Shown piece after piece: positions 1,138 to 23,406 of a stretch of 28,518 nucleotides of DNA (its first letter is position 1; each line of letters opens with the position of its first letter). Position numbers and translations under genes: made by a program. The notes beneath the pieces are model-generated. The model made no database searches and had not been told where the DNA came from. It saw only the letters and a list, made by a program, of their open reading frames with translations. The stretch is taken from positions 1 to 28,518 of the IMG/VR virus record IMGVR_UViG_3300014492_000711; one strand, written 5' to 3'. Source of the DNA: a virus.

Positions 1138-1905
1138 GTGATGATGGCCCCCGAAAATCCACCCGGCTTCGTCGTGCGCACTGAGGCGCAGAAGGCGGCG
1201 TCGGACAACGGCTATCGGCAGGAACGCGGCGTCGAGAGCGGGTGGCTGCACTACGCCTCGACCACAGCGCCGGGTTCGATCTGGATCGCCGGCGCTTCCG
1301 ACCATGGCCCCTGGCTGCTGTCACTCGACCATTCCGGTGTTGCTACGGAGATCGGCGCTCTCCCGGCGGCGCCCGTCCGCGGGCCAGGGCTGGCGACCTT
1401 CATGCTACCAAACGTTACGGAACTGCACGTTGCGCTTGACCGTGTCTACAAGCTTGCCATGAGCTTGCCGGAAGCGCCGCTCGATCGCTTCAAGGCCAAA
1501 ACGGCCAATCTTCCCCGGACGACCGAAGCCGAGCGGATGGTAATCCAGCGCATTGGCCAAGATGTATTCCGCGAAGCCCTGATGAACTACTGGGGCAGCC
1601 GTTGCCCGCTCACCGGTATCACCGAACCGGGCCTACTTCGCGCATCCCATATCGTGCCTTGGGCTGACTGCACCGACGCGCAGCGCCTAGATGTGCATAA
1701 CGGTCTTCTGCTTTCCGCGCTTTGGGACGCGGCCTTTGATCGGGGGCTTATCAGCGTCGCCGATGACGGCACAGTTCTCGTCAGTCCTCAACTTAGCGAG
1801 GCGGCACGTAAGACGCTGAACGTAGCCGCGGCGCCGCTGCTTACGGGCCTACATCATGCACACCGTGCAAACTTGGCACTTCACCGCGCTCGCAACGGCT
1901 TTTGA
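1138..1905 (+). CDS. HNH endonuclease (HNH_2-type)
   Basis: The 255-residue product ends in a clear HNH nuclease module at about residues 152-222. It has CPLTG (156-160), the ASHIVPW core with catalytic His171, DVHNGLLL with Asn188, and the FDRGLISVADDG strand, in the spacing of HNH_2 proteins (PF13391). Residues 35-110 form an N-terminal domain of beta-strand character (SIWIAGASDHGPWLLSL) that often precedes this module in alphaproteobacteria and may bind DNA. The start is GTG at 1138, directly after the stop of the preceding gene; ATG codons at 1141 and 1144 are in frame and equally plausible. No strong Shine-Dalgarno is visible, which fits translational coupling. The expected activity is DNA cleavage. 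The biological role (restriction or defence against host self-DNA versus invaders) is not shown by sequence. Confidence 0.85.
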   Translation: MMMAPENPPGFVVRTEAQKAASDNGYRQERGVESGWLHYASTTAPGSIWIAGASDHGPWLLSLDHSGVATEIGALPAAPVRGPGLATFMLPNVTELHVALDRVYKLAMSLPEAPLDRFKAKTANLPRTTEAERMVIQRIGQDVFREALMNYWGSRCPLTGITEPGLLRASHIVPWADCTDAQRLDVHNGLLLSALWDAAFDRGLISVADDGTVLVSPQLSEAARKTLNVAAAPLLTGLHHAHRANLALHRARNGF

Positions 1906-2361
1906 TGGCTCTGGCTGGACGTTGCATGCTGGAAGTCATGGCACGAGTTTTTGTATATCTCCACCTCAGCACTGCGGCGTTTCCGATTTAGATTGATTGG
2001 AATTAGGTCGATCGAAGCAGGGAAAAAGGCTTCAAAGACGAATTCAAGGCGGACCCGTGTCAATGAGTGCCGATGGCATCTATGCCGACAGTCAATGCCC
2101 TACCCGACGAGCTTTGGACTAAGATCAGCATCTAGTTTTACAAGTACGCGGCCGATGCAGTTTTCAAGGCCCTAGTTGAATGGCGCGCCAACCATCGCAC
2201 AAAAGTACGATCGCCAAAGAGGATCGAAAGGGCGCGTTAGCACTCTGTCCGTGACGCCCAAAATATTTCACAATAATCGCAATAACTTAACCTATTGGGT
2301 TGAATTTCTTCGCCGACTCACCGTATATTGGCAAAGCAAATTTAAGCGCAGGAGGCGCGCC
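1906..2361. other. gene-poor spacer upstream of the HTH/ImmA gene
   Basis: These 456 bases are visibly AT-richer than the flanks and hold no convincing intact gene. A plus-strand frame from the ATG at 2082 to the TAG at 2238-2240 reads like coding sequence (MPTVNALPDELWTKISI, then FYKYAADAVFKALVEW) but is broken by a TAG at 2133-2135, so it may be a decayed gene fragment. The 3' end contains the putative promoter described separately. No tRNA, insertion-sequence end or long repeat was seen. Confidence 0.4.
2300..2329 (+). promoter_or_regulatory. putative sigma-70-type promoter for the HTH/ImmA gene
   Basis: TTGAAT at 2300-2305 and TATATT at 2324-2329 are separated by 18 bases. The -10 box lies 32 bases before the ATG at 2362. 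The preceding stretch (2260-2300) is AT-rich, unlike most of the window. The assignment is by inspection of consensus resemblance only. Confidence 0.4.
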
Positions 2362-3291
2362 ATGTTGACCCCGTTTGGGATTGCAGTGCGAAAACTACGG
2401 CTCGACAAGGGTATGAGACTCTTGGATCTTGCCCGCCTCACGGCCCGCAGCGCCGCCTTCATCTCCGCCATCGAAACGGGCAAGAAGTCGATCCCCGACG
2501 CTTATGTTGCGTTGATTGCCCGGGCGATGAAGCTTTCGGCAGCTGAAATCAAGGAATTACGCCGCGCCGCAGATCGTACGCGGAAAGAAGTGCAGGTGGC
2601 GAAGCTGCCAGAAGACCAACGTGAACTTGTGGCGGCATTCGCCCGCAAGCTCGATGAGCTTCCAAGCGCAATGATGGCAGACTTGAAAAAGATTGTCCTG
2701 AAATCGTCATCCAGCGACATCCCATTTCATCGGAAACGGCGTGGGATATTTGTACCGCCGATGTCTACCGATGTGATCCGCGATTTCGCCGACAAGGTAC
2801 GGTCCGCGTTCGTTGAAGATTCGCAGATTGATTTTCCAATCATGGATGTCTTGGAGTTTCGAATGGCTAACTTGATTGACGGATTTTATGTCGATGTCCA
2901 GGACAAAGAGACGATGGGCCCCGATGAAGGACGAGTTGTTGCGGGCGAAAATGTCATTGCTTTGCGAGAAGACGTGTACGCAGGCGCCTGGGAAGGCAAT
3001 GGCCGTGATAGGTTCACTGCGTGTCACGAGCTTGCGCATTTTCTATTGCACAGAACGGTGACTATGGCTCGAATGAGAGACGATGCAGACAAGATTTATT
3101 GTGATGCCGAATGGCAAGCAGACACGTTTGCCGGGACGCTATTGATGTCTCCTCGGCATCTGCATCAGTTCAAGGATGCTGACGAGGCAGCCGCGGCTTG
3201 CAAAATGAGTCCTCCGGCGGCACAGGTCATGTGGAAAAAATACACTGGAGAGGGACGCTTCAAAAGTTCGTCACCTCAACCAGCTTTGTAA
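2362..3291 (+). CDS. XRE-family HTH regulator fused to ImmA/IrrE-type metallopeptidase
   Basis: The frame is open from a TTG at 2176, but the ATG at 2362 is chosen because it has a strong Shine-Dalgarno (AGGAGG, 2350-2355) and the HTH starts right after it. The result is 309 residues. Residues 5-60 are a Cro/C1-type helix-turn-helix (VRKLRLDKGMRLLDLARL, then AAFISAIETGKKSIP). Residues about 160-290 are an ImmA/IrrE domain with the zinc motif HELAH (222-226) and the downstream AEWQADTFAGTLLMSP segment, where Glu250 is the likely third ligand. Known relatives are prophage regulators in which the peptidase cleaves or relieves a repressor (ImmA/ImmR, IrrE/DdrO). Here both functions sit on one chain, as in many XRE-COG2856 proteins. 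It may control lysogeny or a stress-linked switch. That it controls this prophage is inference, since no cognate operator or lysogeny neighbour is present. Confidence 0.88.
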   Translation: MLTPFGIAVRKLRLDKGMRLLDLARLTARSAAFISAIETGKKSIPDAYVALIARAMKLSAAEIKELRRAADRTRKEVQVAKLPEDQRELVAAFARKLDELPSAMMADLKKIVLKSSSSDIPFHRKRRGIFVPPMSTDVIRDFADKVRSAFVEDSQIDFPIMDVLEFRMANLIDGFYVDVQDKETMGPDEGRVVAGENVIALREDVYAGAWEGNGRDRFTACHELAHFLLHRTVTMARMRDDADKIYCDAEWQADTFAGTLLMSPRHLHQFKDADEAAAACKMSPPAAQVMWKKYTGEGRFKSSSPQPAL

Positions 3292-5417: not shown

Positions 5418-6224
5418 CTAGACGACCGGCACCGGCACGAGGCCCGGTGTTGGCGCGTGCTGCGCCCGCTGCTGCCAATAGTGGAAGGCGATCCAACCGA
5501 CGCCGGAGACCAGGACGAGACCGCCGACCACGGCAACAATCGTCCAAGGGTCATGACTGGAGTCGTGCAGCGTCTTGGCGACGGCACCGCCGGCGGCGAC
5601 CGGTGTCGCGGTCGCCACTTTCTGCAACGTCTTCGGAACGGGTACGACGCCCTTCGCGGGCGCCGCTTGGTTCGGCACCGGTAGTTTCGCGGTGGCTGCA
5701 ATCGGGTGAGCAGCAAGATTGAGCGAGAACGCCTTGACCTCGGCGACGCGGCGAGCCCAGCCATTGCCGAACACCGGCCAGGTTTTGAGCGCCATCAAGA
5801 ACCGGAGGCGCTCGTCGTTGATCGCCACGATGATCGCCTTGGCATCGCGCTTGGCGACGGCGTTGAGAACCTGGTCGGTGACAACGCTGGTATCGTCCGG
5901 CAAACCAACGACGCGGCGCAGAACTCTGCCGCTGCGCCCGATCCCCGAATTCACGCCATAGTCGAAGATGCTGTAGTCGACGCCAGCGGGCAGCTCATCG
6001 CAGCGCTGGGCGGCCCAGTATTTCGTGCGGTAGATCGACTTGGCCTCGTCGAGCCTCATTGCCCGAACGTCGGCCGCCGTGGCATTCGGCTTCACGTACT
6101 TGCGGTAGTCGTAAATGGTGATGCCGAAATTGGTCGGCCCGCCGGGATCTGAAGGCTGGTTGGTGTATCCGCCCTCATGAGCGAGCAGGCGCCGCAGCGC
6201 CTCGTCGTAGGTCGAAGCCGCCAT
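5418..6224 (-). CDS. phage endolysin, GH108 N-acetylmuramidase with C-terminal TM helix
   Basis: The product has 268 residues. The N-terminus carries the GH108 signature LLAHEGGYTNQPSDPGGPTN, with Glu17 in EGGY as the expected catalytic acid, and YWAAQRCDELPAGVDYSIFDYGVNSG follows the family pattern. Residues about 90-170 match the associated PG_binding_3-type domain. A proline/alanine-rich linker (about 172-225) leads to one membrane helix (227-249) and a short tail. It degrades peptidoglycan at host lysis. The ATG at 6224 has GGAGGAG three bases upstream of ACA-ATG spacing. The C-terminal helix is unusual against soluble lambda-type endolysins and may tether the enzyme before lysis. It opens the lysis cassette. 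Confidence 0.9.
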   Translation of the reverse strand: MAASTYDEALRRLLAHEGGYTNQPSDPGGPTNFGITIYDYRKYVKPNATAADVRAMRLDEAKSIYRTKYWAAQRCDELPAGVDYSIFDYGVNSGIGRSGRVLRRVVGLPDDTSVVTDQVLNAVAKRDAKAIIVAINDERLRFLMALKTWPVFGNGWARRVAEVKAFSLNLAAHPIAATAKLPVPNQAAPAKGVVPVPKTLQKVATATPVAAGGAVAKTLHDSSHDPWTIVAVVGGLVLVSGVGWIAFHYWQQRAQHAPTPGLVPVPVV

Positions 6225-6302: not shown

Positions 6303-6923
6303 TTACTGAGTGAGGCACGCCGCCAATTCGGCGCGCGGCCACCAATCGATGCGAGTGATCGGGCTCGTGTTGATCACGTCGATGCCAAGTTGGCGCAGCG
6401 GCTCCACGGCGAGCCGCAGCTGAGCCATCTGGATGTCCCAGGTCTGATTGCCCGGCTTGTTCGGCCGCGGATGGGGCAAATGATGATGCGAGCGGCCGTC
6501 GTCGGCGCGCCGCATGTCGGCGCCGAGAAGCACGATGCGCTTCACGCCGAGATGGACGGCGAAATTGATCGCGCCTTGCAGGCTCGTGCGCTCACTGACA
6601 GCGCAGGAACGATCGAGACTGAGCCCGGGCGGCGGCACTTGACGCCGCAATCGAAGAAGACGCAGCCCTGCAGCCCGAACCGATACCGTGACGATGCGCC
6701 CAGCAAAGGCTGCGAGGGCCTGACGCCGGCAATGGGTCTCCCACCAACTGGCGTCACCAAAAAACAGGAAATCAGCGAACGGCGCGGCTTCGTAACTGGA
6801 ATTGACCACGATCACCCGCCGGCCGCGCAGGAGCGAGAGGTCCTGATCGAGCACGCTGGTGCCGCCGGCAATAATAAAAGCGGTCTCGCCCGCCCACTCC
6901 GGCGCGACGTGCCACCAATGCAT
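6303..6923 (-). CDS. phage protein with MptE/DUF115-like nucleotide-binding fold
   Basis: The product has 206 residues. The start AFIIAGGTSVLDQDLSLL is a glycine-rich phosphate-binding-like loop. RVIVVNSSYEAAPFADFLFFGDASWW and later VKRIVLLGADMR follow the pattern of DUF115/MptE-like or glycosyltransferase-like proteins that occur beside tail fibre genes in many prophages. Its substrate is unknown, though modification of a surface or fibre glycan is a possibility. The ATG at 6923 begins 12 bases after the stop of the large repeat tail protein, so the two are co-transcribed. The Shine-Dalgarno is weak. The terminator-like palindrome at 6247-6264 follows it. Confidence 0.6.
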   Translation of the reverse strand: MHWWHVAPEWAGETAFIIAGGTSVLDQDLSLLRGRRVIVVNSSYEAAPFADFLFFGDASWWETHCRRQALAAFAGRIVTVSVRAAGLRLLRLRRQVPPPGLSLDRSCAVSERTSLQGAINFAVHLGVKRIVLLGADMRRADDGRSHHHLPHPRPNKPGNQTWDIQMAQLRLAVEPLRQLGIDVINTSPITRIDWWPRAELAACLTQ

Positions 6924-6935
6924 GATGCCCGACCG

Positions 6936-9263
6936 TCAGACGCCGATCGAGACGACGGTCAATTGCACCGGAGGCGGCAACGTCGGACCTTCCGATGTGG
7001 GTTCGCTCTCGGGCTCGGATTGAGGTTCAGAGCCGGACTCCGATGTCGGTTCGGAAGACGGCTCTGATGGATCTTCCGATCCGCCTTCGCTTGGCGGCTC
7101 GCTCTCGGATTCGCTGTCGTCCAAGCCCGCGCTTTGGTCCGCGGCAACGATGGCGTCGCCGAAGATCGCCCAACTGGTGAACCGACCGCCCTCCTGCACC
7201 ATGGTGGTGTGAGTATCGTGTTGGCGCGCTTCTACAATCTTACAAGCGGCTCCAAGAAACGATCCGTAGGAATGGGCTCCAGCGTTTGGCTGGGCTTGTG
7301 TTGCAATAGTCGTCCAGCCGCTAGCGCCATCGCTAGACACAACTGCGCCATCGTTTGTGCCCAGCAGGGCAAGCAGCATCGTGACCTTGGCGGTCGTGCT
7401 GATGCCGATGTCGTTCGGTTGCGCGTTGCCAGAACTGTGCGCCGGCAACGCAGCATGCGGGTCCCAGATGCGCGACAGATCGGCGCCACTTATGCCGAAG
7501 ACGATGAGAGTAGTGCTATCCGCGTCGCCCTCGAACGCCACCCGGATCGTGTCATTGATCAGCGGGCGCTGCGCGATTGCATACCAGACTTCAAAGTCGT
7601 TGTTGGTGTCCGGCTCTTTGATAGACGCGCGCTTTTTCCATTCGAGCCCCGCATCATCAACGATGGAGGCAACGGCCTGACCGTGACTCCAATAGCCGCC
7701 GTTGTGAACGACGGCGACGATCACGTCGTTGCCGAACGCGGTTGACAGCTTCGCGCTGACGCCGTTTTGAACCGTATAGTCAGCGGACTTGCCGCTGGCG
7801 TGACCGTCGATGCCGAACGGGCCACCACTTGTGCCGTATTCGCCGATTAGGCGCAGCGCGTCGACAACAATGCCAGTTGCGCCGGCCGCGCCGAAGGCGG
7901 TGGCTGTGACGCTCTCTCCGGAGATTGGATCGTCATCACCCCATTCCGCGTAGACACTCATCGATGGGGCATAGCCCCAATATGTTACGTGAGACAGGTA
8001 CAGAACCGGAAAAATCGTGGCTTGCCCAACTAAGAAGAAAGGCGTTTCGACCCTCGAGTAGGCGGCCAAGCCTGGTCCCAATCCAAGCAAGAGAACTTTG
8101 CTTGCCTCGGTCGAGACCGTAACCGAGTGAGTGCCAGCCGCGCCCTGCGAAACCGCAGGCAAAGCTGCGCTGGTGTCCCATGGCGACGAAGGATCAACGC
8201 CTTGAACCGCGAAAGCAATCGCCGCCACGCCCTTGCCGGTCAGGGTTGGGCCGCTTGCCATAGCAACGGTTATGACATCGTCGGTCAGAGTATCTGGCGC
8301 CACCGCGTACCAGACGGCGTAGCCGCCGGACGCCAGGCCTAAGCCGCTGCCGTTCCCGCTGATGCCTCCGGCCGTTCGTTGCGCCCAGGTCAGGCCCGCC
8401 GAGTCAGTGATGCCAGTAACGGAATTCGAACCCTCCCAGGTGAGCGCTACTATAATGACATCTTCGGTTGCGCTCGTGCTCAAGCGCAGGGTAACCGTCG
8501 ACCCGCCGGCGGCGGCGTTGATGGCTATGCCGTCGAAATAGGCATAAACGACCGGGGGTTCGCTCTCAGGCTCGCTCTCCGATTCTCCGTCACCTGAGCC
8601 AGCCGCAACGATGGCGTCGCCGATCATGCCCCAGGCATTGCTTATAGAACTGTACGTGAGCGACAGGTTTGATTGCGGCGACGATGTAATCACGTAGGCC
8701 GCGAGGCCTGACGCTGACTCCTGCGCCGCGGCCGTACTTGAAGGTGCCGTTACGGCTGTTAGTGGCGGTTGGGGGCTCGATATAGAGAAGTAATTCCATG
8801 AAGCCGCAAAAGAAAACACGAACGCTTTTTGGGCGGCCGTCGACACTTCAACGCTTTGCGTCCAGCCCGACCCATCGTTGCTCGCCGGCAGCGCGTCGTT
8901 TGAATCCCATGGCGCCGACGTATCAGCGCCGGAGACTGCAAAGGCCATGCACGACCAGTCGTCCGTCGTGCTCGCGAAAGTAAAAGTAATAGTGTCGTCC
9001 GAAAGTTTTGCCGATGCGATCGCGTACCAGACCTCGATCGCGCCCTTGCCGAATGTCTTACTTGAGCGCCGGGCCCACGAGAGCCCGGCCGTGTCGCTCA
9101 CGTCAGAAATCGCAATTGGGGTGTTGCTGTTGTGACCCCCCGACTCATTGAAGACACACAGCACGACAACGACGTCTGGCTTCGAAGTCGACAGTGTTAC
9201 GCTGCCGGTAACAGCATTGCCGCCGCCGGAATTGGCAGCGGACGCATCGAGGGCGAGCGCCAT
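6936..9263 (-). CDS. large three-repeat tail fibre/tail surface protein with SEP-rich linkers
   Basis: The product has 775 residues and no recognised enzyme motif. It consists of three diverged copies of a beta-rich module of about 230-250 residues. Matching landmarks are DTAGLSWARR/DSAGLTWAQR/DDAGLEWKKR (57, 287, 536), WYAIASAKLSDDTITF and its relatives (79, 318, 560), and SGADTSAPWDSNDALPA and its relatives (111, 354, 592). Copies 1 and 3 end in IGDAIVAA/FGDAIVAA and run into Ser-Glu-Pro-rich linkers (226-237 and 716-762). A short tail (TLPPPVQLTVVSIGV) closes the protein. Position after the tail-tip genes and the modular beta-structure suggest a fibre or an exposed adhesin on the virion. 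The ATG at 9263 is three bases from the preceding stop. The function is inferred. Confidence 0.75.
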   Translation of the reverse strand: MALALDASAANSGGGNAVTGSVTLSTSKPDVVVVLCVFNESGGHNSNTPIAISDVSDTAGLSWARRSSKTFGKGAIEVWYAIASAKLSDDTITFTFASTTDDWSCMAFAVSGADTSAPWDSNDALPASNDGSGWTQSVEVSTAAQKAFVFSFAASWNYFSISSPQPPLTAVTAPSSTAAAQESASGLAAYVITSSPQSNLSLTYSSISNAWGMIGDAIVAAGSGDGESESEPESEPPVVYAYFDGIAINAAAGGSTVTLRLSTSATEDVIIVALTWEGSNSVTGITDSAGLTWAQRTAGGISGNGSGLGLASGGYAVWYAVAPDTLTDDVITVAMASGPTLTGKGVAAIAFAVQGVDPSSPWDTSAALPAVSQGAAGTHSVTVSTEASKVLLLGLGPGLAAYSRVETPFFLVGQATIFPVLYLSHVTYWGYAPSMSVYAEWGDDDPISGESVTATAFGAAGATGIVVDALRLIGEYGTSGGPFGIDGHASGKSADYTVQNGVSAKLSTAFGNDVIVAVVHNGGYWSHGQAVASIVDDAGLEWKKRASIKEPDTNNDFEVWYAIAQRPLINDTIRVAFEGDADSTTLIVFGISGADLSRIWDPHAALPAHSSGNAQPNDIGISTTAKVTMLLALLGTNDGAVVSSDGASGWTTIATQAQPNAGAHSYGSFLGAACKIVEARQHDTHTTMVQEGGRFTSWAIFGDAIVAADQSAGLDDSESESEPPSEGGSEDPSEPSSEPTSESGSEPQSEPESEPTSEGPTLPPPVQLTVVSIGV
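6978..7118 (-). repeat. Ser-Glu-Pro low-complexity coding repeat
   Basis: Residues 716-762 of the fibre-like protein are an irregular array of SESE, SEP, PESE and TSE units. A short copy of the same linker type (residues 226-237, bases 8553-8588) separates the first two beta-modules. The DNA is correspondingly repetitive in TCGGA/GGCTC-type words. Such acidic linkers are expected to be extended and flexible, and replication slippage could vary their length. Confidence 0.8.
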
Positions 9264-9266
9264 TGT

Positions 9267-10040
9267 TCAGTCCCCGATGCTGCCTTTTCGCGCGGCGAAG
9301 TTCACGCTGAAGTCCTTCGCGGTCGCATCCAGTCCCGGGGGCCGCAGTATCCGCATGCGGTCGCCGGCCTCGAATTGCACGGCAGCGCCAAGCGCGAACG
9401 TTGCCACCGTGGCACCCGCCGCGATCGAGATCGTCCCGATCTCCGTTGCATTCTTGCGCACGGATAATGTGAGCGCTCCGGTAGTTGCTGTTTGCAGGCT
9501 TGCCGCCGATCCGATCAAACCTTCCGGCAGATAGAATCTGCGGTTGGCGATCAATGTGAACATCGCCGCGCCGGCATCGATGCCGACGCCGGGCGTCCCC
9601 GGAAAGAAAAAGCCGATGTCGTAGAGGTTCGGGAAGGGCAGGATGAATTGATAGAGCGCCTGTCCGGCAATTAGCCCGTCTGGATCGAATGCCGCGCCCG
9701 AGGTGTGCTCAAGCAGGGCCAGATAGAGGCCATCGTTGGCAGTGAAGAAATCAAAGACCGCGTAATCGTGGTTGCCTTCATAGCTTCCGGTGAAGCGAAA
9801 GGCCGCTTGCGGCAACGTAAATGGGCCGAACGAAGTCACTCCATCCGACAACATAATGGTCATGCGGTTGCCGCTGACCGTGATGTTGCCGATCTGCAGG
9901 GGCTGAGCTGGATTGTCCTCGACGGCTTGCAGTCGTTGCAGGAGATCCCAGAAATTCTCGTCGACCTCGACGGCGTTGAGGTTTGCGCCTTTGCCGGCGC
10001 CCCAACGCATATCGTCGCGTGTCCTGAATTTAAGCGACAC
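9267..10040 (-). CDS. phage tail fibre/tip-associated protein
   Basis: The product has 257 residues. The N-terminus (RTRDDMRWGAGKGANLNAVEVDENFW) resembles the attachment end of phage tail proteins. The rest is beta-rich, with GNITVSGNRMTIMLSDG and a glycine/alanine-rich second half. I do not recognise a named family. The start is GTG at 10040 with GAAGGGAAG upstream; an in-frame ATG at residue 11 is possible. It lies between two other tail genes on the same strand, with the next ATG only three bases past its stop, which supports a structural role in the distal tail. Confidence 0.65.
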   Translation of the reverse strand: MSLKFRTRDDMRWGAGKGANLNAVEVDENFWDLLQRLQAVEDNPAQPLQIGNITVSGNRMTIMLSDGVTSFGPFTLPQAAFRFTGSYEGNHDYAVFDFFTANDGLYLALLEHTSGAAFDPDGLIAGQALYQFILPFPNLYDIGFFFPGTPGVGIDAGAAMFTLIANRRFYLPEGLIGSAASLQTATTGALTLSVRKNATEIGTISIAAGATVATFALGAAVQFEAGDRMRILRPPGLDATAKDFSVNFAARKGSIGD

Positions 10041-10070: not shown

Positions 10071-10601
10071 TCAGCCGTAAGGCTTGAGGTACGTGGGTTG
10101 GGAGGCCTTGGTCAGATAGGGAAACGTCTGGATCGTGCTTCCGCCGCCAAAACCGTTGGAGCTGTCGCCGCCGGTCGATGAAAGTCCAACGCCCGCCACG
10201 TAGGCGTTGGCGGGATCACCCCACGGCGGCTCCTCAATCTCGATCGCCGGATATCTGCCGAGGCCGTTATAGGCAGCAAACCACCCATTCATTGTGCTGA
10301 GAATGAGATCCGCCATCCCTTCCGTGAACGGCCCGCTGGCGTCGTTGTGACGGATCGCGTCGACAAGCGTGGCGAAGCCGAAGGTTCTCGTGGAAAAGAC
10401 CGCCCATTGGTGCAGGTCGGCGCGCCAAATGTAGGTCGTCAACGTCTGCACCGGGTTGTAGACCCACCATCCGGTGTATTCGGATTCGACCTCGCTTTCG
10501 GGCTCGCCGTGATCTGTCGGCCAATGGATTTTCGTGATGCGCTGAAACGTATCGAGCCGCACCAAATCGGGCGCGCGGCCAGTCGTCTTGATGATGGCCA
10601 T
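10071..10601 (-). CDS. phage tail-region protein of unknown function
   Basis: The product has 176 residues. It begins AIIKTTGRAPDLVRLDTFQRITKIHWP and contains a short acidic EPESEVESE stretch (about 33-41) that echoes the linkers of the downstream fibre-like protein. Aromatic residues are frequent (WWVYNPVQTLTTYIWRADLHQW), and the C-terminus is glycine/serine rich (GGDSSNGFGGGS). I recognise no family. The ATG at 10601 is nine bases after the preceding stop, so it belongs to the tail operon. The SEP echo suggests a partner of, or shared origin with, the fibre module, which is speculation. Confidence 0.6.
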   Translation of the reverse strand: MAIIKTTGRAPDLVRLDTFQRITKIHWPTDHGEPESEVESEYTGWWVYNPVQTLTTYIWRADLHQWAVFSTRTFGFATLVDAIRHNDASGPFTEGMADLILSTMNGWFAAYNGLGRYPAIEIEEPPWGDPANAYVAGVGLSSTGGDSSNGFGGGSTIQTFPYLTKASQPTYLKPYG

Positions 10602-10609
10602 GTGGAGCT

Positions 10610-10948
10610 TTAAGAAAAGTCCGGCTTTATCGCGATTTCTTCGCCGGTCGCCGCGTTCTTAAAAACCATCTGCTTGATGCGCTCGACATCGATGTATTGT
10701 CGTTCGTCGTCCGGGTTGGTGATGCGCACGGTCTCGGTTTTGCGCCGCGACTTATCCTCGTCCCAATTGATCTTGACTTCGAACCTCACGATATCCGGCG
10801 CCGGCGCCACCTTGTTGTCGGCCTCGCCCTGCCAGGCGATCTCGGCATTGTCGGCGTTCGGGGGCACCGCCGGCTGAACGGGCGCTAGCACGCGGGCGGT
10901 GAAGACATCGTCGCGTTGAAACGGCCGGACGACGCGTTCCAGGCTCAT
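10610..10948 (-). CDS. small phage tail-region protein of unknown function
   Basis: The product has 112 residues. The sequence is hydrophilic, with a proline-rich first half (APVQPAVPPNADNAEI) and a second half IVRFEVKINWDEDKSRRKTE, then YIDVERIKQMVFKN, suggesting a small beta/alpha domain. The ATG at 10948 overlaps the TGA of the large tail gene by four bases (ATGA), a strong sign of translational coupling and of a real gene. No family is recognised. It is probably a minor virion or assembly protein, from position only. Confidence 0.65.
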   Translation of the reverse strand: MSLERVVRPFQRDDVFTARVLAPVQPAVPPNADNAEIAWQGEADNKVAPAPDIVRFEVKINWDEDKSRRKTETVRITNPDDERQYIDVERIKQMVFKNAATGEEIAIKPDFS

Positions 10949-12873
10949 GCAGTTGATCCCGCCTCAAGGTCGATCGTGCGCGGAATCTTCAGGTCAGAAA
11001 CCGCAACGTCGTAATCGGTTTCGAACGGACCTCCGCTCACCGGCACCATGCGAATATCGAATTTGTCGGCTGCGGTATTGAGCAGCGTGAAGACATCGTC
11101 AGTGCTTTTGGCGACCAGCGCCGTGTTGAAGCCGGGCAGGCCGTGGGCGCCGCCGGCAGCAATTTCCTTCAGCCCATTCAGGGCGGACTGTTGCGCGCCA
11201 ACGCCGCCGGTCCATGACAACGAGCGGACGCAGCGCTGGCGGGTCATGCGGAAGAAGTCGACACCGTCGTCGTTCGGCGGCAGCCCTTCCTGGCTCGCAT
11301 AGTTTACTTCGCCGGGGATCGGCATGACGTACTGGTTGTCGCGGCGTTGGTAGCCGTCGGTAACGTACCCATCCGCTACGTAGGTCGGGTCGCCCGCGAC
11401 TTCATCAACCCTGCCGCCTTTGCCGACGCTGCAGCCGATCGTGATGGTGCCGACGAACGCGCCGGAATCGCCGTCCATGCTGATCTGGTAGGATTTTATC
11501 TTGCCGGCCGCTTCGCCACCGGGAAGGCGGCGATCGACGAGAACAAGGCTCTTGCGGCAGGAAAGTTCGAGGTCAACCGCCAGCGCGCCCGAGATCTCGA
11601 ATTCGACGTTAACGGCGCGCGCTCGCGACAAGAGCTGCGCCCGCGCCACGCAGATCAGGTACTCGATACTCTGCTGCCCGCGCTCCAGGGCGAAATAGAT
11701 CGACCGCCGCACATCGCCGATTGGCAGCGCTCCTTCCGGGTCGATCGGGGAGACGATCTCCGAAGACTTCATGTTAAGCGCGATCGCGTCATCTCCATCC
11801 GGCTCGGTAACGATGGATTGCACATCTGCTTCGAGCATGAAGGTGAGCACCTCGGTCCGGCTCCGCGAGGCCGAATACGAAAGTTGCAAGTCGCACGACA
11901 GCGTCCACAGCGGGACCTGCAGAATTTCGTTGAAGGCATTTGGATAGGGCGCCGGCGAACGCGGGATCGGCGTGCCTGACCACCACATGTAGATCGGCGA
12001 CGGGTCGGAGATAAAGATATACGCGTCGCCGGGCATCTTCGTCGAAAACGTGTCGCCCGAATACTTGCCGCTAAAGGGCCAGGTGGCGTAGGTGAACCAA
12101 CCGAGCGCGGGCGTACGTACGTCGCCGCGGCGGGTCGCGGACCCGGCGAGCACCTTCCAACCACCGCCCACATCATGCCCGCTCTTGGGCCAGTTCTTTT
12201 CCAAGCCCGCACCGGTAAAGGACTGGATCGTCGGCGGCACGATGTTGGGGAGCGCACCGGCCGCATTCTGCGTCCAGGTCACTGTCGCGGTCATCGTAGC
12301 GCTGCGGACGGGCGCCTGGTCATAGTTGATCCGCAGCGAGTCGTAGAACGCTTGGTCTTCCTCGATCGATAACGTGCCGTCTTCGCCGACCAAGATATTG
12401 GAGGTCGAGACTTGCAGCGATGTTCGATCGATGTGCCACAGCTCCGGCCGCGATTCCAAAACATTGTCCGGATCGTCGGCGGTATCGGGCGAAAACCAGA
12501 TCGGGTCCCAGTAAGGTCCGACCTTCAAGGTCTCGGCAACGGCGGCCTTCTGCTCTTCGAAATCCTCTGGCCTTGCCACGAAGGCAAGCTTGACCAGTTC
12601 CTGGTCGAGGTCTTCGGGAACGCCGACGAGGCGCCCGAAGAACAGTGGCACGACATCGGCGCCGGGCTTTTGATAGGAGAGCCACGCCCAGACCTTGCGG
12701 CCGGGTGCGAGCAGGCCGACGCGGGGGTTGATGATAGTGATATCGAGGGAGGGAAAATCACCTTCGTGGTGCAAGATCGTAAACGACAGAATTTCTTCGT
12801 CGTCGCGAACATGTGCTGGACCGAAGCTCAGCTCGCCGGCGTCCGCCCACGCAAAGAAAAATGGACCGGCCAC
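10945..12873 (-). CDS. large phage tail protein, probable tail hub/tip component
   Basis: The frame is open to a TTG at 12888, but the GTG at 12873 is preferred because GAAGAGG lies at good spacing and the preceding gene then ends two bases before it. This gives 642 residues; the TTG start would add five residues and overlap by 14 bases. The protein starts AGPFFFAWADAGELSFGP and continues with ITIINPRVGLLAPGRKVWAW and LFFGRLVGVPEDLDQELVKL, the style of hub or baseplate proteins that form a beta-barrel ring at the tail tip. There are no enzyme motifs. It lies downstream of the tape measure, in the place of lambda L/K/I/J-type tip genes. The exact role is inferred. Confidence 0.7.
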   Translation of the reverse strand: MAGPFFFAWADAGELSFGPAHVRDDEEILSFTILHHEGDFPSLDITIINPRVGLLAPGRKVWAWLSYQKPGADVVPLFFGRLVGVPEDLDQELVKLAFVARPEDFEEQKAAVAETLKVGPYWDPIWFSPDTADDPDNVLESRPELWHIDRTSLQVSTSNILVGEDGTLSIEEDQAFYDSLRINYDQAPVRSATMTATVTWTQNAAGALPNIVPPTIQSFTGAGLEKNWPKSGHDVGGGWKVLAGSATRRGDVRTPALGWFTYATWPFSGKYSGDTFSTKMPGDAYIFISDPSPIYMWWSGTPIPRSPAPYPNAFNEILQVPLWTLSCDLQLSYSASRSRTEVLTFMLEADVQSIVTEPDGDDAIALNMKSSEIVSPIDPEGALPIGDVRRSIYFALERGQQSIEYLICVARAQLLSRARAVNVEFEISGALAVDLELSCRKSLVLVDRRLPGGEAAGKIKSYQISMDGDSGAFVGTITIGCSVGKGGRVDEVAGDPTYVADGYVTDGYQRRDNQYVMPIPGEVNYASQEGLPPNDDGVDFFRMTRQRCVRSLSWTGGVGAQQSALNGLKEIAAGGAHGLPGFNTALVAKSTDDVFTLLNTAADKFDIRMVPVSGGPFETDYDVAVSDLKIPRTIDLEAGSTA

Positions 12874-12874
12874 C

Positions 12875-13306
12875 TTATGCCTCTTCAAGATCGAGGGACC
12901 AGCTGATCGCTGCGCCGTATTCGTCCTCCTGCACGGCGAAATTCATCACGATCATCGTCAGCCGTGGCCGATAGATCGTGAAGGCGCCTTCCACATAGGA
13001 CGAGCCTGGCACGACCGGCCGTGATGGCGAGCCGCCAACGGTCTTGTAGGAAAGCGTCGCCACGCAATCGACAGTCACTTGCTCGCCCGGCCAGATCCCA
13101 TCAAGCGCCGGCGTATTCTGGTCGGTGCAGGAGATCGTGCTGCGGAATTTCCGGAATTGCGCCGCCGAAATGTCGATTAAGCTGCCGTTGACAGTGCGGC
13201 GCGTGTTCTGGGCGGCCTGGATCGGCGTCAGCGTCTGCGACAGCCCGCGCGCCGAATAGGGCGAGACCCCGGGCCCCGATATGACCAACAGCGTCTCGTT
13301 CGCCAA
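12875..13306 (-). CDS. phage distal-tail protein of unknown family
   Basis: The product has 143 residues. The only usable in-frame start is TTG at 13306, with AGGG upstream, because the TAA of the tape-measure gene lies in this frame just before it. The product is beta-rich: LLVISGPGVSPYSARGLSQTL, an ISCTDQNTPALDGIWPG stretch, and FTIYRPRLTMIVMNF. It directly follows the tape measure, where many siphoviruses encode a distal tail or tip attachment protein, and it precedes the putative hub. The function is inferred from order. Confidence 0.65.
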   Translation of the reverse strand: MANETLLVISGPGVSPYSARGLSQTLTPIQAAQNTRRTVNGSLIDISAAQFRKFRSTISCTDQNTPALDGIWPGEQVTVDCVATLSYKTVGGSPSRPVVPGSSYVEGAFTIYRPRLTMIVMNFAVQEDEYGAAISWSLDLEEA

Positions 13307-13312
13307 GATACA

Positions 13313-16072
13313 TTATCCCTGGAACCAATTCGGTTTGCGTCCGGCGGAACGGACCTGTTTGGCCGAGGCAAAGCGTTGAAGCCGATCGACCACATCGCCC
13401 GCGGCAGTCATGGCAAAGGCTTCGCCGGCAATGTTGATGGTGACCGGCCGCAGGCTGCTGCCTACCGACACGGCAGAAACCGCCGCCAAGCCGCCGTCAG
13501 CGAAGTGCATTGGTAGCGGCACCAATGCTTGCAACGACCGCACGAGCCCGCCTTCGGCAAACCGCGCGAATGCTTTCGGATTGATCTGCATCCCGTTGAG
13601 CGCATCGAACAGCGAGAGCCCGTATTTGCGCACGGCTGCGGCGCGGACCACGAACTCGCCGTTCGACAGCCACGCCGGGATCGAATCGCTGGTCGCAGAG
13701 CCGGGCCCGAACACCGCGCCGCCGCGGGCGTAACCATTGCCTCCGCTCGCCGCCTGCTGCTGGGCGCTGAACGCCTGCCGCGCCGCCTCCGCGATGGCGT
13801 TCCAGACGCCGAGAGCGAAGTCCCGCAGCGACGCGAGAAAGCCGATGACCCTGTCGATGCCGGCGCTCCAAAGCGACGCGATGCTGTCCCAGGCGCCGAC
13901 GACGCCATCAATGATCGCCTGCCAAGCCGATTGCGCGGCGGTGGTCAGTGTTTCCCAGAGGGCGTCCACCGAATCGACCCCCGCCTGCCAGGCAGCTTGC
14001 AGGGCAGCCCATAGCGCGGCGGCGCCGGATAGAATCTCGTCGGCCATCGATTGCGCCGCATCGAGGACCTCGCGCCAAGTCGCGCTCAGAAGCTGCATAC
14101 CGCTCTGCCAGCGCGCCGCCAGGCTGGTCCAGAACGCAGCAGCACTGGCAACCACAGCTAGGAAGGCGGCATTGGCCGTGGCGACGATTTGTTGCCACAC
14201 AACGCCAGCCGCCTGCACGAACGCCTCAAATTGCGCCGCGAGTCCGGTCGCAAGATTGGTCACAAACGACAACACCGCATCGAGTGCCGCTTGCGCGCGC
14301 TGCGCAAAGGTCGACCAGTCCACCGCGCGTACAAGCGTGACCGCAAGAAAGCCGATGGCCGCTCCGATGGCGGCGATCGCAACCGGAACGATGCCGATGG
14401 CGGCGATGAGGCCGACCACGGCAACGCGCAGAACGCCGAAGAGGCCGCCCAGTGCCTCGAATGCCACAAGCATGAGCTGTCCGACGGCGGTCACGGCGAC
14501 GAAAGATGCACGCAGCACCCCGAAGGCGCCGACAACGAGCTTGATGACGTTGGCAAGTAGTGTGAAGGCACCCACCATCCTGGCAAGGAGAAGCACGACG
14601 CCGACATCGGCGGCAGTCAGCTGCGTGCCGAAAATGCGGTTGATCGATTCGGCAATGGTCTGAAGGAGCGCAAGGAATTCCTTGAACGCCGGGACGATGA
14701 TGTTCTGGGTGACCTTTGCCACGGCCGCGCCGAGGTCGATGATCATTTGGCGCGCCGACTTGATCCAGCCCGTCTCGATTGCATCGGTGTCCCCGGTCAG
14801 CGCCCGGACCAGGTCAAGGAGCACCGGGCGAACGCGCGTCGCCAACTCGCTCGCCCATAGAAGAATATCGGTGCGAACACGGCCGATCGCATCAATGAGG
14901 AGCTCGGCAGCGTCGGTGATCGCCGGGGCAAAGATGATCCCAACGGAATTCTTGGTCGCGGCAACGCTACGCCGAAGGAGTGCCAAGGTTTCGCTCAGGC
15001 TCTTGCCAACCTCGAGCTCAGTGTCGCTCATGATCAGGCCGAGCCGTTCGGCGCGATTGCCGATCTGGTCGATCGCCTGCCGGCCGCCGCTCAACAGCTC
15101 GACCATCTGCGGGCCAAGCCGTCGGCCGAAGATCTCGACCACGCGTGAGGCCCGTTCGGCCGGTGTCGGCAGTGCGCTGATCTGGTCGGCGAGCGCCTTC
15201 AGCCGTTCGATCGCATCCTGATTGCTGGGCCCAAGTCCCTTGAGCGCCTGGTCGACATGAATGATGGATTCGCCTCCCTGCCGGACGCTTGGCCCGAACA
15301 GCTCCATTTCGCGGCGGAGCTTGTCATAATCCTGGGCGGCTTGCCGACCCGCGAAGCCGCCTTGCAGGGTGGCCTGGCGCAACTCGAGGAGACGCTGCTG
15401 ATTGCCGTTGAAATTATCAGACTGTTCCTGGACCTTTTCGTTGATCAGCGAGAGCGCTGACACCAACTTGTCTTCGCTGCCGCCGAGTTGCTCGGCGGCG
15501 ACGGCAAGTCTCTGATATTCCCGCGGCGAGGTGCCGGCTGCGATCGCGGCATCCTTGATCTGCTCCGCCGCGTTGGCTGCGGAGACTGAGATCGCAAGGA
15601 ACGACGCCGGCACAGCCGATAAGACTGCGACGGATCGGAGCACGGTACCGCTGATCGACTCGAATGCGCCCGTCACGCCATCGCGAAACTCGCGCACGCG
15701 ACCAAAAGCGCCCGAGAAAGCCGTGCCGACCGCCTGGACCGCAAGCCCGACCCGCGCGCCGATATTGACGGCCTCGACCAGCCGTTGCTGTGTCGCCTGG
15801 ACGGCGCCGCCGAACTGCGAAAAGCCCGAGCCGCTCTGTGCAGCAGTACTTCCGGTCGCAGCGATGCGCTGGCGAAGCTCATCAACGGTCGTACTCGCGC
15901 GCTTGGTCGCAGCTTCGATTGCCGAGGCGGGACCGCTGAGGTTGACCTTTTCGCCGGCCTTTTGCAGCTGCGCGAAGGCGTCCTCACCGGCTTTGCCGAG
16001 ATCGGCAAGCGCGCGCTTGACCTGATCGGAGCCTTCAAGCGCAATGCGTTGCGAGATCGTCGGGCGCGCCAT
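13313..16072 (-). CDS. tape measure protein
   Basis: The product has 919 residues and is the longest gene in the block. Residues 1-100 are helical and coiled-coil-like. Residues 100-480 are alanine-rich helices (lambda-type loop segments such as AGTSPREYQRLAVAAEQLGGSEDKL). Residues 488-585 are a long hydrophobic region. Residues about 590-790 repeat a tryptophan-rich helical motif (WQAGVDSVDALWETLTTA, then AWQAIIDGVVGAWDSI). This is the standard anatomy of a siphovirus tape measure, which sets tail length and enters the host at DNA injection. By the usual rule of about 0.15 nm per residue the tail would be roughly 140 nm. The ATG at 16072 lies one base past the preceding stop. The upstream chaperone gene is separated from it by cargo. 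Confidence 0.93.
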   Translation of the reverse strand: MARPTISQRIALEGSDQVKRALADLGKAGEDAFAQLQKAGEKVNLSGPASAIEAATKRASTTVDELRQRIAATGSTAAQSGSGFSQFGGAVQATQQRLVEAVNIGARVGLAVQAVGTAFSGAFGRVREFRDGVTGAFESISGTVLRSVAVLSAVPASFLAISVSAANAAEQIKDAAIAAGTSPREYQRLAVAAEQLGGSEDKLVSALSLINEKVQEQSDNFNGNQQRLLELRQATLQGGFAGRQAAQDYDKLRREMELFGPSVRQGGESIIHVDQALKGLGPSNQDAIERLKALADQISALPTPAERASRVVEIFGRRLGPQMVELLSGGRQAIDQIGNRAERLGLIMSDTELEVGKSLSETLALLRRSVAATKNSVGIIFAPAITDAAELLIDAIGRVRTDILLWASELATRVRPVLLDLVRALTGDTDAIETGWIKSARQMIIDLGAAVAKVTQNIIVPAFKEFLALLQTIAESINRIFGTQLTAADVGVVLLLARMVGAFTLLANVIKLVVGAFGVLRASFVAVTAVGQLMLVAFEALGGLFGVLRVAVVGLIAAIGIVPVAIAAIGAAIGFLAVTLVRAVDWSTFAQRAQAALDAVLSFVTNLATGLAAQFEAFVQAAGVVWQQIVATANAAFLAVVASAAAFWTSLAARWQSGMQLLSATWREVLDAAQSMADEILSGAAALWAALQAAWQAGVDSVDALWETLTTAAQSAWQAIIDGVVGAWDSIASLWSAGIDRVIGFLASLRDFALGVWNAIAEAARQAFSAQQQAASGGNGYARGGAVFGPGSATSDSIPAWLSNGEFVVRAAAVRKYGLSLFDALNGMQINPKAFARFAEGGLVRSLQALVPLPMHFADGGLAAVSAVSVGSSLRPVTINIAGEAFAMTAAGDVVDRLQRFASAKQVRSAGRKPNWFQG

Positions 16073-16950: not shown

Positions 16951-17580
16951 ATGAGAAAGAAGAACACATTATGGATCGCTGTCGGAGTTATTTTACTCGG
17001 TGCCGCGGCATGGGGGCCGATTGTGAGTAACGTTGAGCAGCCCAAATATGAAACCGTCGAAACGGCCGATAAAATTGAAATTCGCGACTACGCGCCCATT
17101 ATCGTTGCCGAGACAGATGTGTCCGGAGAACGCCGAACGGCAATAGGCGAAGGCTTTCGCACCATAGCGGGCTACATCTTCGGCAATAATCTCTCTTCAC
17201 AGAAGGTGCCGATGACCGCTCCCGTCACCCAGCAGGCCAGTGAAAAAATAGCCATGACCGCACCGGTAACCCAGCAAGGTGATGGCGAGACTTGGCACGT
17301 CAGATTCGTCATGCCCGCTAACTACACTATGGACACGCTCCCGAAGCCGAAGAATCCTGCCGTCAAGATCAAGGAAATTGCGGCTAAACGGTTTGCGGTG
17401 ATCCGCTTCTCCGGATGGGCGGGTGAGGAAAGTCTGAAGCGTCGCACCGATGAATTGGACGCATTCATCAGTGCGAAAAATCTGCATCCCGTGTCGGCGC
17501 CCACCTATGCATATTACAACCCACCGTGGACGCTGCCATTTTTCCGCCGTAACGAGGTTATGATCGAAATTGCGCGTTAG
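16951..17580 (+). CDS. membrane-anchored SOUL-family haem-binding protein (prophage cargo)
   Basis: The product has 209 residues. An N-terminal basic stretch and hydrophobic helix (about 7-26) give a signal anchor or uncleaved signal peptide, so the domain is predicted to be periplasmic. Residues about 33-207 are a SOUL domain, with KYETVETADKIEIRDYAP at the start, KVPMTAPVTQ in the middle and PFFRRNEVMIEI at the end. The MTAPVTQQ unit occurs twice in tandem. SOUL proteins bind haem or related tetrapyrroles, but their bacterial role is not settled. The gene opposes all neighbouring phage genes, and its TAG overlaps the TAA of the tail-chaperone extension by three bases. It looks like a lysogenic-conversion (moron) gene and seems less GC-rich than its neighbours by eye. 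Confidence 0.9.
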   Translation: MRKKNTLWIAVGVILLGAAAWGPIVSNVEQPKYETVETADKIEIRDYAPIIVAETDVSGERRTAIGEGFRTIAGYIFGNNLSSQKVPMTAPVTQQASEKIAMTAPVTQQGDGETWHVRFVMPANYTMDTLPKPKNPAVKIKEIAAKRFAVIRFSGWAGEESLKRRTDELDAFISAKNLHPVSAPTYAYYNPPWTLPFFRRNEVMIEIAR

Positions 17581-18300: not shown

Positions 18301-18750
18301 ATGTCCTCGCCAACCCCGCAGCCGGTGATCGAGAGAGTTTTTCGCAAGCTAGGCGGCCCTCAGGCCCTGGGCAGTGACGTGTCTTCGGAGGCCGATCTGG
18401 CTCGCATCGTTCATGGTCGCATTCGGCTGGCCGTTCTCGCCCACGTCTTGAAAGCAGGATTTTCAAAACAGGAGATCGAGCGCTTCGTTATTCCGTCGCG
18501 CACTTGGAGGCACCGTAAGACGAAGAGACAACCTCTTTCGATCGAGGAGTCCGACCGCGTTGTAAGGCTCGCTCGCATTCAAGCCTTGGCAGAGGATGTG
18601 TTCGGCGATGCTGAAAAGGCCAACCGATGGCTTCGCGAAGGGTTGGGAATTCTAAATGGAAGCTCGCCACTCGAAGTCGCACGGACCGACGCCGGTGTTC
18701 GTTTGATCGAGCAAATTCTTGCGAAGCTCGACTGGGGCGCCGCCGCCTAG
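18301..18750 (+). CDS. Xre/MbcA/ParS-type antitoxin (DUF2384)
   Basis: The product has 149 residues. The ATG at 18301 is preceded by AGGAGAG. Residues about 30-80 form a helix-turn-helix-like region (ARIVHGRIRLAVLAHVLKAG, then FVIPSRTWRHRK). Residues 93-149 are the toxin-binding DUF2384 module, with AEDVFGDAEKANRWLREG, SSPLEVARTDAGVRLIEQIL and a C-terminal LDWGA. It should bind and neutralise the RES toxin encoded immediately downstream (TAG directly followed by ATG) and repress its own promoter through the two palindromes upstream. Both genes oppose the phage tail operon, which marks the pair as an inserted cargo unit. Confidence 0.92.
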   Translation: MSSPTPQPVIERVFRKLGGPQALGSDVSSEADLARIVHGRIRLAVLAHVLKAGFSKQEIERFVIPSRTWRHRKTKRQPLSIEESDRVVRLARIQALAEDVFGDAEKANRWLREGLGILNGSSPLEVARTDAGVRLIEQILAKLDWGAAA

Positions 18751-19218
18751 ATGCGTCTTTGGCGGCTATCTAGTGAGCGGCGCGCCCGCGCCTTCGATGG
18801 CGGCTACGGGCTTGCCAATGACGGCCGCTGGAACACGCAGGGTCGCCCGGTAACATACTGTTCGACGGTGGTTTCGCTTACCGCGCTGGAAAAGCGCGTT
18901 CACGTGACCGATCCCGCTCTCTTGCCGGCACAGGTCCTTGTTACTTACGAGTTGCCAGATCGAGTTTCCATGCGAACGATCGGCATCAGCGAGCTTCCTT
19001 CAGACTGGACGGCACGCCAGACCCATACACAAAACATTGGCGATCAATGGCTCGATTCGGTATCTGAAGTATTGCTATTTGTTCCGTCTGTCATTGTGCC
19101 GATCGCAGACGTGCCAGATCGAAACGTGCTTATTAATCATCGCGTCGCGGACGCTGCTTTGATCAAGATCGCGGACGTTGCTCCGTTCTCACTCGATCCA
19201 CGACTCTTCAAGCCCTGA
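18751..19218 (+). CDS. RES-domain toxin (NAD-targeting family)
   Basis: The product has 155 residues and is nearly all RES domain. It has MRLWRL with Arg5, GRWNTQGRPVTYCSTVVSLTALE with Arg26, Tyr36 and Glu47 as the conserved active-site type residues, and a C-terminal VPDRNVLINHRVADAAL. Characterised RES toxins of RES-Xre pairs deplete NAD+ and arrest growth. The start abuts the stop of the antitoxin, so translation is coupled and toxin output depends on antitoxin synthesis. In a prophage the pair could stabilise the lysogen or act against superinfecting phages. Either is inference. No disruption of the reading frame is seen. Confidence 0.93.
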   Translation: MRLWRLSSERRARAFDGGYGLANDGRWNTQGRPVTYCSTVVSLTALEKRVHVTDPALLPAQVLVTYELPDRVSMRTIGISELPSDWTARQTHTQNIGDQWLDSVSEVLLFVPSVIVPIADVPDRNVLINHRVADAALIKIADVAPFSLDPRLFKP

Positions 19219-22098: not shown

Positions 22099-22524
22099 TC
22101 AGGTACGAGCTGAAGCGGCGCGCTCCTTTGCGCGTCGCACGATCGGGCTTTCGCCGGCAGCGGGCGCCGACGGGGCTGCCGCAATGACGCTCGTTGCCTC
22201 GGCGCGCGAGGCAAGCGTATCGAGGACCGAGCGGCGCAAGGCGTTAGCCGAAATCCCCTGGCGCATGGCGTCTGCGGCATCGATGGTGACGCCAAGCCGA
22301 GCGGCTTGTGCCGCGAGCGCAGCGACCTCTGCGAATTCAGCACGCAGCCTGTCTGCCGTATCGGACGCCGAAACCGGACCAGGTTCTCGCACGGGCGTGG
22401 GTTCGGGTGCCGGCGCAGGTTCGGGACTCGGCAGCGGCGTCTCGGCCACGTCAGGCGATGCAAGCGCCAGCTCGGGCTCCGTGCCGGTGGCTTCGGAAAC
22501 AGGTGCGTTTTTGGTCTTTGCCAT
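22099..22524 (-). CDS. nested capsid scaffold protein (Nu3-like) from an internal start
   Basis: The ATG at 22524 is in frame with the S49 protease gene (codon 295) and has a strong Shine-Dalgarno (AGAGGAG at 22538-22532, seven bases before the ATG), unusual inside a coding region. The 141-residue product is acidic and proline/alanine-rich (EPAPAPEPTPVREPG) and then helical (RLRAEFAEVAALAAQAARLG), as phage scaffolds are. Lambda makes Nu3 in the same way from within C. Independent translation is predicted, not proven. Confidence 0.68.
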   Translation of the reverse strand: MAKTKNAPVSEATGTEPELALASPDVAETPLPSPEPAPAPEPTPVREPGPVSASDTADRLRAEFAEVAALAAQAARLGVTIDAADAMRQGISANALRRSVLDTLASRAEATSVIAAAPSAPAAGESPIVRRAKERAASART

Positions 22525-23406
22525 GAATGGACTCCTCTTCGGATCTGTGACCGTGCGTGTTGCCGTGGCCTGCTGGTCGAGTTCGGCCGTCATGTCCGCG
22601 ATCGCGGCATCGAGCGTGCCGACCCGATCGGCAAGACCGGTGCGCACGGCAAGTTCGCCGCGATAAATCGCGGCTTGGGTGCCGCGAACCGCCTCCGGCG
22701 TAAGACTGCGGTTTTCGGAGACGAGGTTCGCGAACTGCTCGTAAAGACGGTCGATGTCGTCTTGAATCGCGCCCCGGGCCTGATCGGAAAGCGCCTGATG
22801 CGCATTGCCGTCGATCTTGTGGTCGCCGGCAAACACGAACGACCAAGCGAGGCCCGCCTTCGCATCGGCACCACTCTCATCGACGTGAGCCGCAACGACG
22901 CCGATCGAGCCGACCTCGCCGGTTTGAGTGACGTAAATCCGGTCCGCGGTGCTCGCGATCGCGTAGGCGGCGGACAGCGCGCTTTCGCTCGCCACCGCCC
23001 AGAGCGGTTTGTCAGTCGCGGCCTTGAGCGCAGCGATACTTTGAACCAAGTCGAACAATCCGCCGACCTCGCCTCCGGGCGAGTCGATTTCGAAAATGAT
23101 CCCGCGGACGCCAAAGTCCTCGAACGCGGACGTGATCGCGTCGCCAATCGCGCTGTAGGACGAAAGACCACTCGCCGCCGATAGGTAGCCGGAACGGCTC
23201 ACTAGCGTGCCGATGATCGGCACCACGGCGATTCCTTCGGCCGTGATCGAGGCTCCCGGCTCAGGAGCGGGATCGAGCTGGATGGCCTGGGCCACAGTGC
23301 CGGCAAGGCGCGGGGCGAGTGCGCCGAGGATCACCTCGAGCTTGGCGCGCGCGATCATGAGCGGCGTCCCGAATACCCGGGTCGCCACGAAGGGAAGATC
23401 GATCAT
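22099..23406 (-). CDS. S49 family head maturation protease with C-terminal scaffold domain (lambda C-like)
   Basis: The product has 435 residues. Residues 60-270 are an SppA/S49 serine peptidase: VVPIIGTLVSRS, FEIDSPGGEVGG (106-116), ESALSAAYAIAS with Ser145 as likely nucleophile, TGEVGSIGVV, and AGDHKIDGN with Lys197 as likely general base. Residues from about 295 on form a proline-rich linker and helical scaffold-like domain. The enzyme should act in prohead maturation and remove scaffold. The ATG at 23406 overlaps the portal stop by four bases. The architecture and position equal lambda C/Nu3. Confidence 0.9.
   Translation of the reverse strand: MIDLPFVATRVFGTPLMIARAKLEVILGALAPRLAGTVAQAIQLDPAPEPGASITAEGIAVVPIIGTLVSRSGYLSAASGLSSYSAIGDAITSAFEDFGVRGIIFEIDSPGGEVGGLFDLVQSIAALKAATDKPLWAVASESALSAAYAIASTADRIYVTQTGEVGSIGVVAAHVDESGADAKAGLAWSFVFAGDHKIDGNAHQALSDQARGAIQDDIDRLYEQFANLVSENRSLTPEAVRGTQAAIYRGELAVRTGLADRVGTLDAAIADMTAELDQQATATRTVTDPKRSPFMAKTKNAPVSEATGTEPELALASPDVAETPLPSPEPAPAPEPTPVREPGPVSASDTADRLRAEFAEVAALAAQAARLGVTIDAADAMRQGISANALRRSVLDTLASRAEATSVIAAAPSAPAAGESPIVRRAKERAASART

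Follow-up and report, generated by a model that had tools for sequence, protein, structure and literature searches.

The gene at 6936..9263 (minus strand) of a 28,518-nucleotide viral DNA, IMG/VR record IMGVR_UViG_3300014492_000711, encodes three homologous modules in tandem. Its product is probably an accessory tail-tip adhesin of a soil-type tailed phage of the temperate type, and most likely serves as a receptor-binding protein. The best reading is that of a multivalent tail adhesin or receptor-binding protein made of interchangeable modules; its presence in the virion and the binding of a ligand we infer. Throughout, the window denotes the whole stretch of 28,518 nucleotides.

The three modules of the probable tail protein

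The open reading frame codes for 775 amino acids, starts with ATG and contains no internal stop. Module 1 (8598..9263, minus strand; aa 1-222) is joined to module 2 (7830..8543, minus strand; aa 241-478), the most diverged copy, by a linker with Ser-Glu-Pro (SEP) tripeptides at aa 230 and 234 (8544..8597, minus strand; aa 223-240). Module 3 (7128..7829, minus strand; aa 479-712) directly abuts module 2 and is followed by an acidic tail with SEP at aa 721, 733, 737, 745, 749 and 753 (6939..7127, minus strand; aa 713-775). Modules 1 and 2 were delineated by homology and AlphaFold2 models, module 3 by homology. The original prediction held that three diverged copies of a module of roughly 240 residues are present. 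This was borne out in a single open reading frame, with a module size of about 230 residues. In Smith-Waterman alignments modules 1 and 2 scored 225 (identity 37.6% over 157 columns; best of 1000 shuffles 92), modules 1 and 3 also 225 (31.7% over 227 columns; best of 1000 shuffles 78) and modules 2 and 3 176 (33.6% over 143 columns; best of 1000 shuffles 72). The mean scores of the shuffles, 1000 for each pair, were around 40. A profile of 18 modules, these three copies included, recovered all of them at near full length. The predicted landmarks DxAGLxWxxR, WYAIAxxxLxDDxI and SGADxSxPWDxxxALPA were located as well; variants in module 2 include WYAVA and VQGVDPSSPWD.

Acidic SEP-rich stretches had been thought to connect and terminate all modules. 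They were confirmed at the junction of modules 1 and 2 and at the C-terminus; between modules 2 and 3 there is not a single SEP tripeptide. The two SEP stretches of the gene are no closer in DNA than expected by chance (267 of 2000 random synonymous recodings were as good), thus a duplicated linker is not supported. A small echo of the linker had also been reported in the neighbouring gene at 10071..10601. The corresponding peptide GEPESEVESE scores 36, a value that shuffling the protein reached 6 times in 1000, and in a comparison of the DNA random synonymous codons did as well in 749 of 2000 cases. By these tests the echo is indistinguishable from similar composition and was discarded. Single-strand folding of the DNA of the SEP tail gave no signal (z -1.2). 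A Pfam PARP match (E 0.0034) falls on the same tail and was rejected as compositional.

Using an alignment of 18 sequences, AlphaFold2 predicted module 1 as 12 strands without any helix (mean pLDDT 87.7, pTM 0.88). The model of module 2 (mean pLDDT 82.4, pTM 0.84) has a strand order which resembles that of module 1; the two alignments share members and the two predictions are not fully independent. The equivalence of the repeats is therefore backed by sequence for all three modules and by models for modules 1 and 2. Modules 1 and 2 are confidently predicted as all-beta, yet similarity to solved Ig-like or carbohydrate-binding folds was not distinctive. Foldseek reported 0 matches in the PDB at E <= 0.001, and the best VIA-align superpositions on solved structures had a Z of 5.2 for module 1 (rmsd 2.7, 87 residues aligned) and of 6.9 for module 2 (rmsd 3.5, 103 aligned). 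Matches to integrin, cohesin, adhesin and pilin domains of solved structures did not rise to the level at which common arrangements can be told apart, and we disregarded them.

Predicted viral proteins yielded 59 fold matches at E <= 0.001 for module 1 and 36 for module 2; 32 of these 36 recur among the best 50 listed for module 1. Among these 32 are annotated minor tail proteins from mycobacteriophages (Tweety, Zenon, Gaia and DroogsArmy). Minor tail proteins of Gordonia phage and models from uncultured Caudovirales (BFVD) were matched as well. The Tweety model A5YJY9 matched the model of module 1 with a Foldseek E of 2.3e-5 (TM 0.63 over the query) and that of module 2 with an E of 2.8e-4 (TM 0.54), predicted models on both sides in each case. 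Based on its length (296 aa in both) and annotation we identify A5YJY9 with Tweety gp21 (22143-23033; 296 aa), a minor tail protein of phrog_2106 / phrog_553. In hhalign the window and Tweety-type profiles are collinear across the strand landmarks but match weakly, at a probability of 2.9 and an E of 0.016. Tweety gp21 is similar to the window protein in its fold and in its gene position among the tail genes after the tape measure. It differs in having one such domain with short N-terminal repeats, whereas the window protein has three modules, an SEP linker and a tail. The models thus indicate a fold shared between the window module and Tweety-type minor tail proteins, and membership in phrog_2106 or phrog_553 is not claimed. 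The best-named rhizobial phage match by fold is A0A0F6SJ03 of Sinorhizobium phage phiN3 (BFVD; E 9.3e-9), a single domain of 244 aa. Unlike the window protein this uncharacterised protein has one module only, and identity is 15%.

No family-level match to the whole protein or its modules was found in Pfam, PHROGs or NCBIfam. With PHROGs the whole protein matched nothing at E <= 1, and 18 modules matched four families by one member each, none beyond chance (best E 0.019). As had been anticipated, no well-described fibre family was hit in Pfam, PHROG or NCBIfam. In these collections the module's domain bears no family name; modular tail adhesins as such are already well known. In tblastn searches the whole protein found nothing in 50,697 phage records or in 72,556 plasmid records. 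A scan of viral contigs with six peptides and tblastn with two single relatives detected no relatives either. Relatives surfaced only when the alignment of the three modules was the query. In the PDB the sequences of protein and modules matched nothing except 5hx0, at chance level (E 0.54, module profile). It aligns at the GLTW stretch and is, in our own judgement, an Asp-box mimic.

A conserved tail slot with variable heads

The minus-strand tail genes of the window are arranged in the order tape measure (13313..16072; several PHROG tape-measure families, best 7.1e-18), a conserved gene in the interval between tape measure and hub (12875..13306; 50-54% identity in the related loci L008 and L012), a large conserved gene read as the tail hub (10945..12888; 42-43% identity in L002-L004; 80 loci), a small conserved gene (10610..10948; 32-36% identical in L002-L004), the gene with the weak SEP-like stretch (10071..10601, from the ORF listing), a fibre-like gene (9267..10040), the module gene, a phrog_4603-like gene and a GH108 lysin. 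The assignment of 10945..12888 as hub is inferred from gene position. The C-terminal domain of the fibre-like gene matches PHROG tail-fibre families (phrog_7049, 3.5e-12), and L002-L004 have a homologue with 53-54% identity ahead of their module gene. In the window the module gene starts 3 bases after the fibre gene on the same strand.

Other genes of the window may be mentioned here. The gene between module gene and lysin (6303-6923, minus strand) resembles phrog_4603, 'alpha-2,3-sialyltransferase' (1.8e-33). The GH108-type lysin (5418-6224, minus strand) has, by eye, a hydrophobic stretch at its C-terminus and is 64% identical in the Pseudolabrys locus L015. On the opposite strand amid the tail genes lies a SOUL heme-binding protein gene (16951-17580, plus strand; Pfam 5.5e-50), an unusual phage cargo. 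It is adjoined by a pair of an Xre/MbcA/ParS-type antitoxin and a RES-domain toxin (18301-19218, plus strand), and together they form a cargo island within the structural operon. Phage-regulator-like is a gene with HTH and IrrE-type peptidase domains (2176-3291, plus strand), and an HNH_2 endonuclease gene is located at 1138-1905 (plus strand).

The position of the module gene was followed in relatives. Directly ahead of the module gene lies a fibre ORF that carries the 9267-type domain; this holds for the window, L002, L003, L004, L008, L010 and L011. In L002-L004 hub and fibre are followed by a protein of 1024 aa composed of propeller and discoidin-like domains and one module. L008 keeps this gene order, with a four-module protein of 1390 aa in last place. 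A collagen-like fibre with a 9267-type C-terminal domain precedes a single-module protein of 244 aa in L010 and L011, and L013 likewise has a single-module protein with a collagen-like fibre directly upstream. A propeller that L013 encodes in a separate gene is a relative of the N-terminal part of the L004 protein (blastp 4e-8). In L012 (6001-9360) the ORF directly after the 12875 homologue begins with one module and continues as the hub homologue, a fusion at the N-terminus of the latter. We place the module protein at the tail because the gene order is kept in relatives and because of this hub fusion; these are the strongest arguments.

The slot was surveyed around 25 relatives of the fibre gene and 80 of the hub. 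Of 72 loci in which a downstream ORF was examined, 6 had modules in ORFs that lie downstream of the hub, a lower bound as some stretches stop short of the slot; three of the six are the already known L002-L004. The majority of contigs with a hub lack the module, a point against the proposed role. The slot of L041 encodes SPRY-like and propeller heads with Ser-Pro-Glu linkers, and L135 has SPRY-like heads with TWASTE-type linker repeats, the domains being named by eye in both; in L135 the module is in an ORF later than the slot. L125 combines a module with TWASTE-type repeats like those of L006 and L008. We noted that in L006, L008, L125 and L135 repeats of about 20 residues, TWASTExxDxFxAxG, link quite different head domains. 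The tail slot is clearly a conserved locus with variable, swappable heads and module numbers.

The number of modules among relatives is 1, at least 3, or 4. The survey thus bears out variation in module number among homologues, and the notion that the protein evolves by module duplication is supported to this extent. A tree of 39 modules neither groups nor dates the window copies: they do not form one clade, the backbone is open with good support for 13 of the 36 inner branches, and the order of the copy splits is not resolved. Some copy numbers are inherited, since two module pairs are orthologous between L006 and L008. The swapping of whole head domains looks no less important than module duplication.

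Could the modules be a structural spacer that sets the length of a side arm and binds nothing? Module number varies, and the beta sandwich is generic with no clear solved relative, both as expected of a spacer. However, the stand-alone single-module proteins of L010 and L013 make a role in length unlikely, and the slot in relatives holds discoidin-like and propeller domains. Such domains usually bind ligands. We give hardly any credence to a pure spacer.

The last 14 residues of the window protein (6939..6980, minus strand) are Pro-rich, then hydrophobic, and some slot proteins have a similar end, a likeness which is statistically weak. A Pro/basic stretch and then a hydrophobic end at the stop codon were seen in the window, L002-L004, L006, L008, L013, L041, L121, L128, L134 and L135. 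A peptide rule, written after the examples, fits 6 of 55 slot ORFs and 4 of 311 other ORFs; after removal of the three examples used in writing it the ratio is 3 of 52 vs 4 of 311 (Fisher p 0.064). The shared end is possibly a C-terminal docking peptide, and with these weak statistics it is kept as a lead.

Relatives in archaeal and bacterial genomes

When 84,980 species genomes were scanned with the module alignment, using a pattern biased to the DTAGLTW motif, 15 loci were obtained: 12 in archaeal MAGs, two alphaproteobacterial, of which one is a broken copy of the L004-type protein, and one other bacterial. The archaeal carriers are Micrarchaeota, Bathyarchaeota, Nitrososphaerales and Gagatemarchaeum MAGs. 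Modules of the 12 archaeal loci scored 91-158 bits against a model built without archaeal modules, a 6.5-bit fragment (L017) being excluded. Genome groups around the carriers were then surveyed at E 1e-5 with a model that included archaeal modules. Matches were present in 11 of 196 genomes from the phylum of a Micrarchaeota MAG, in 20 of 201 from the class of a Bathyarchaeota MAG and in 15 of 46 from the family of the Gagatemarchaeum MAG, there with up to 11 copies per genome. Only the centre genome itself matched in the phylum of a Nitrososphaerales MAG (1 of 200), the family of the Acetobacteraceae MAG (1 of 200), and the phylum (1 of 299) and family (1 of 198; older model) of the Pseudolabrys MAG. 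MAG contamination is possible for single loci; it hardly accounts for a whole family.

Two archaeal ORFs, G670:C114 4771-7443 and one in G697:C36, have three tandem module matches and parallel the triple layout of the window. The Pseudolabrys chromosome carries a copy of the 1024-aa propeller-module protein (L015, 6360-9134) with its 5' part out of frame; neither a hub nor a fibre homologue was detected within the 16 kb of this locus. The archaeal surface-type proteins have clear sequence homology to the window module and, like the window protein, tandem copies in single ORFs. They differ from it in being cellular and in often having N-terminal hydrophobic segments. The occurrence of the module in archaeal proteins means that the domain need not be part of a phage.

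This bears on a further alternative, that the gene is a moron, i.e. that a lysogen makes a secreted or cell-surface protein which acts outside the virion. The archaeal relatives do look secreted or membrane-anchored, and the gene is situated between tail genes and lysin with the phrog_4603-like gene adjoining. However, a hydrophobic segment within the first 90 residues, with ORF starts set mechanically, was seen at 8 of the 15 genome loci but at none of the 12 viral ones, and the window protein has none at its N-terminus. The gene is on the same strand as the fibre gene and begins 3 bases after it, and the hub fusion in L012 also argues against a moron, which we consider very improbable.

Possibly, and we propose it tentatively, soil archaea and tailed bacteriophages have been trading the module with each other as a mobile domain for surface adhesion. 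In the phages, one to four copies would be plugged into a hub-linked tail slot with similar linkers and a similar C-terminal end, while the heads change. If true, archaeal cell surfaces and phage tails would share an adhesive vocabulary, in the form of an unsolved fold. A direct description of a named domain common to phage tails and archaeal surfaces was not found in the literature searched; it may still be published.

A putative gripping head at the tail tip

How might the window protein operate? It would sit at the tail tip as part of the virion, with three tandem beta-sandwich modules as a multivalent gripping head, flanked by the flexible acidic SEP linker and tail. The flexible C-terminal end is a likely tether to the tail, although the statistics of this putative anchor are weak. 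The modules may bind a cell-surface glycan or another ligand on the host surface. The single-module proteins of L010, L011 and L013 show that multivalency is not essential. The wider family would diversify by swapping and copying modules. The receptor-binding or virion-surface role proposed at the outset is supported in its tail-associated part by gene order and relatives, with receptor binding as a probable function.

According to PMC13033339, beta domains at the tail tip of mycobacteriophage Douge (BppU and central fibre; CBM-like) bind host glycans. The Douge baseplate proteins, with repeated beta domains at the tail tip, are in this respect an analogy for how the window protein works. We found no relation in fold or sequence to the window module; Douge chains are absent among the PDB matches listed, though a relation may exist. 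PMC13252515 describes baseplates whose core is conserved and whose accessory proteins vary, a similar analogy for the window slot.

The protein may also be a decoration of the virion surface which confers weak, non-specific stickiness to soil polymers or to mucus-like or biofilm glycans and does not determine the host. Several surface domains of Douge bind glycans (PMC13033339). Archaeal proteins with N-terminal hydrophobic segments carry modules of this family too; for them general adhesion is plausible, and host specificity could be carried by adjacent fibre-like genes such as 9267. On the other hand, the gene content of the slot varies strongly, as expected of host-range genes, and fusion of the module to the hub does occur. 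We regard mere decoration as rather unlikely and prefer a receptor-binding tail adhesin.

Naming the module would annotate many phage proteins which at present are unnamed. The family also offers a compact test case for the exchange of binding heads by phages on a tail core that stays constant, and for the sharing of surface-binding domains between phages and archaea.
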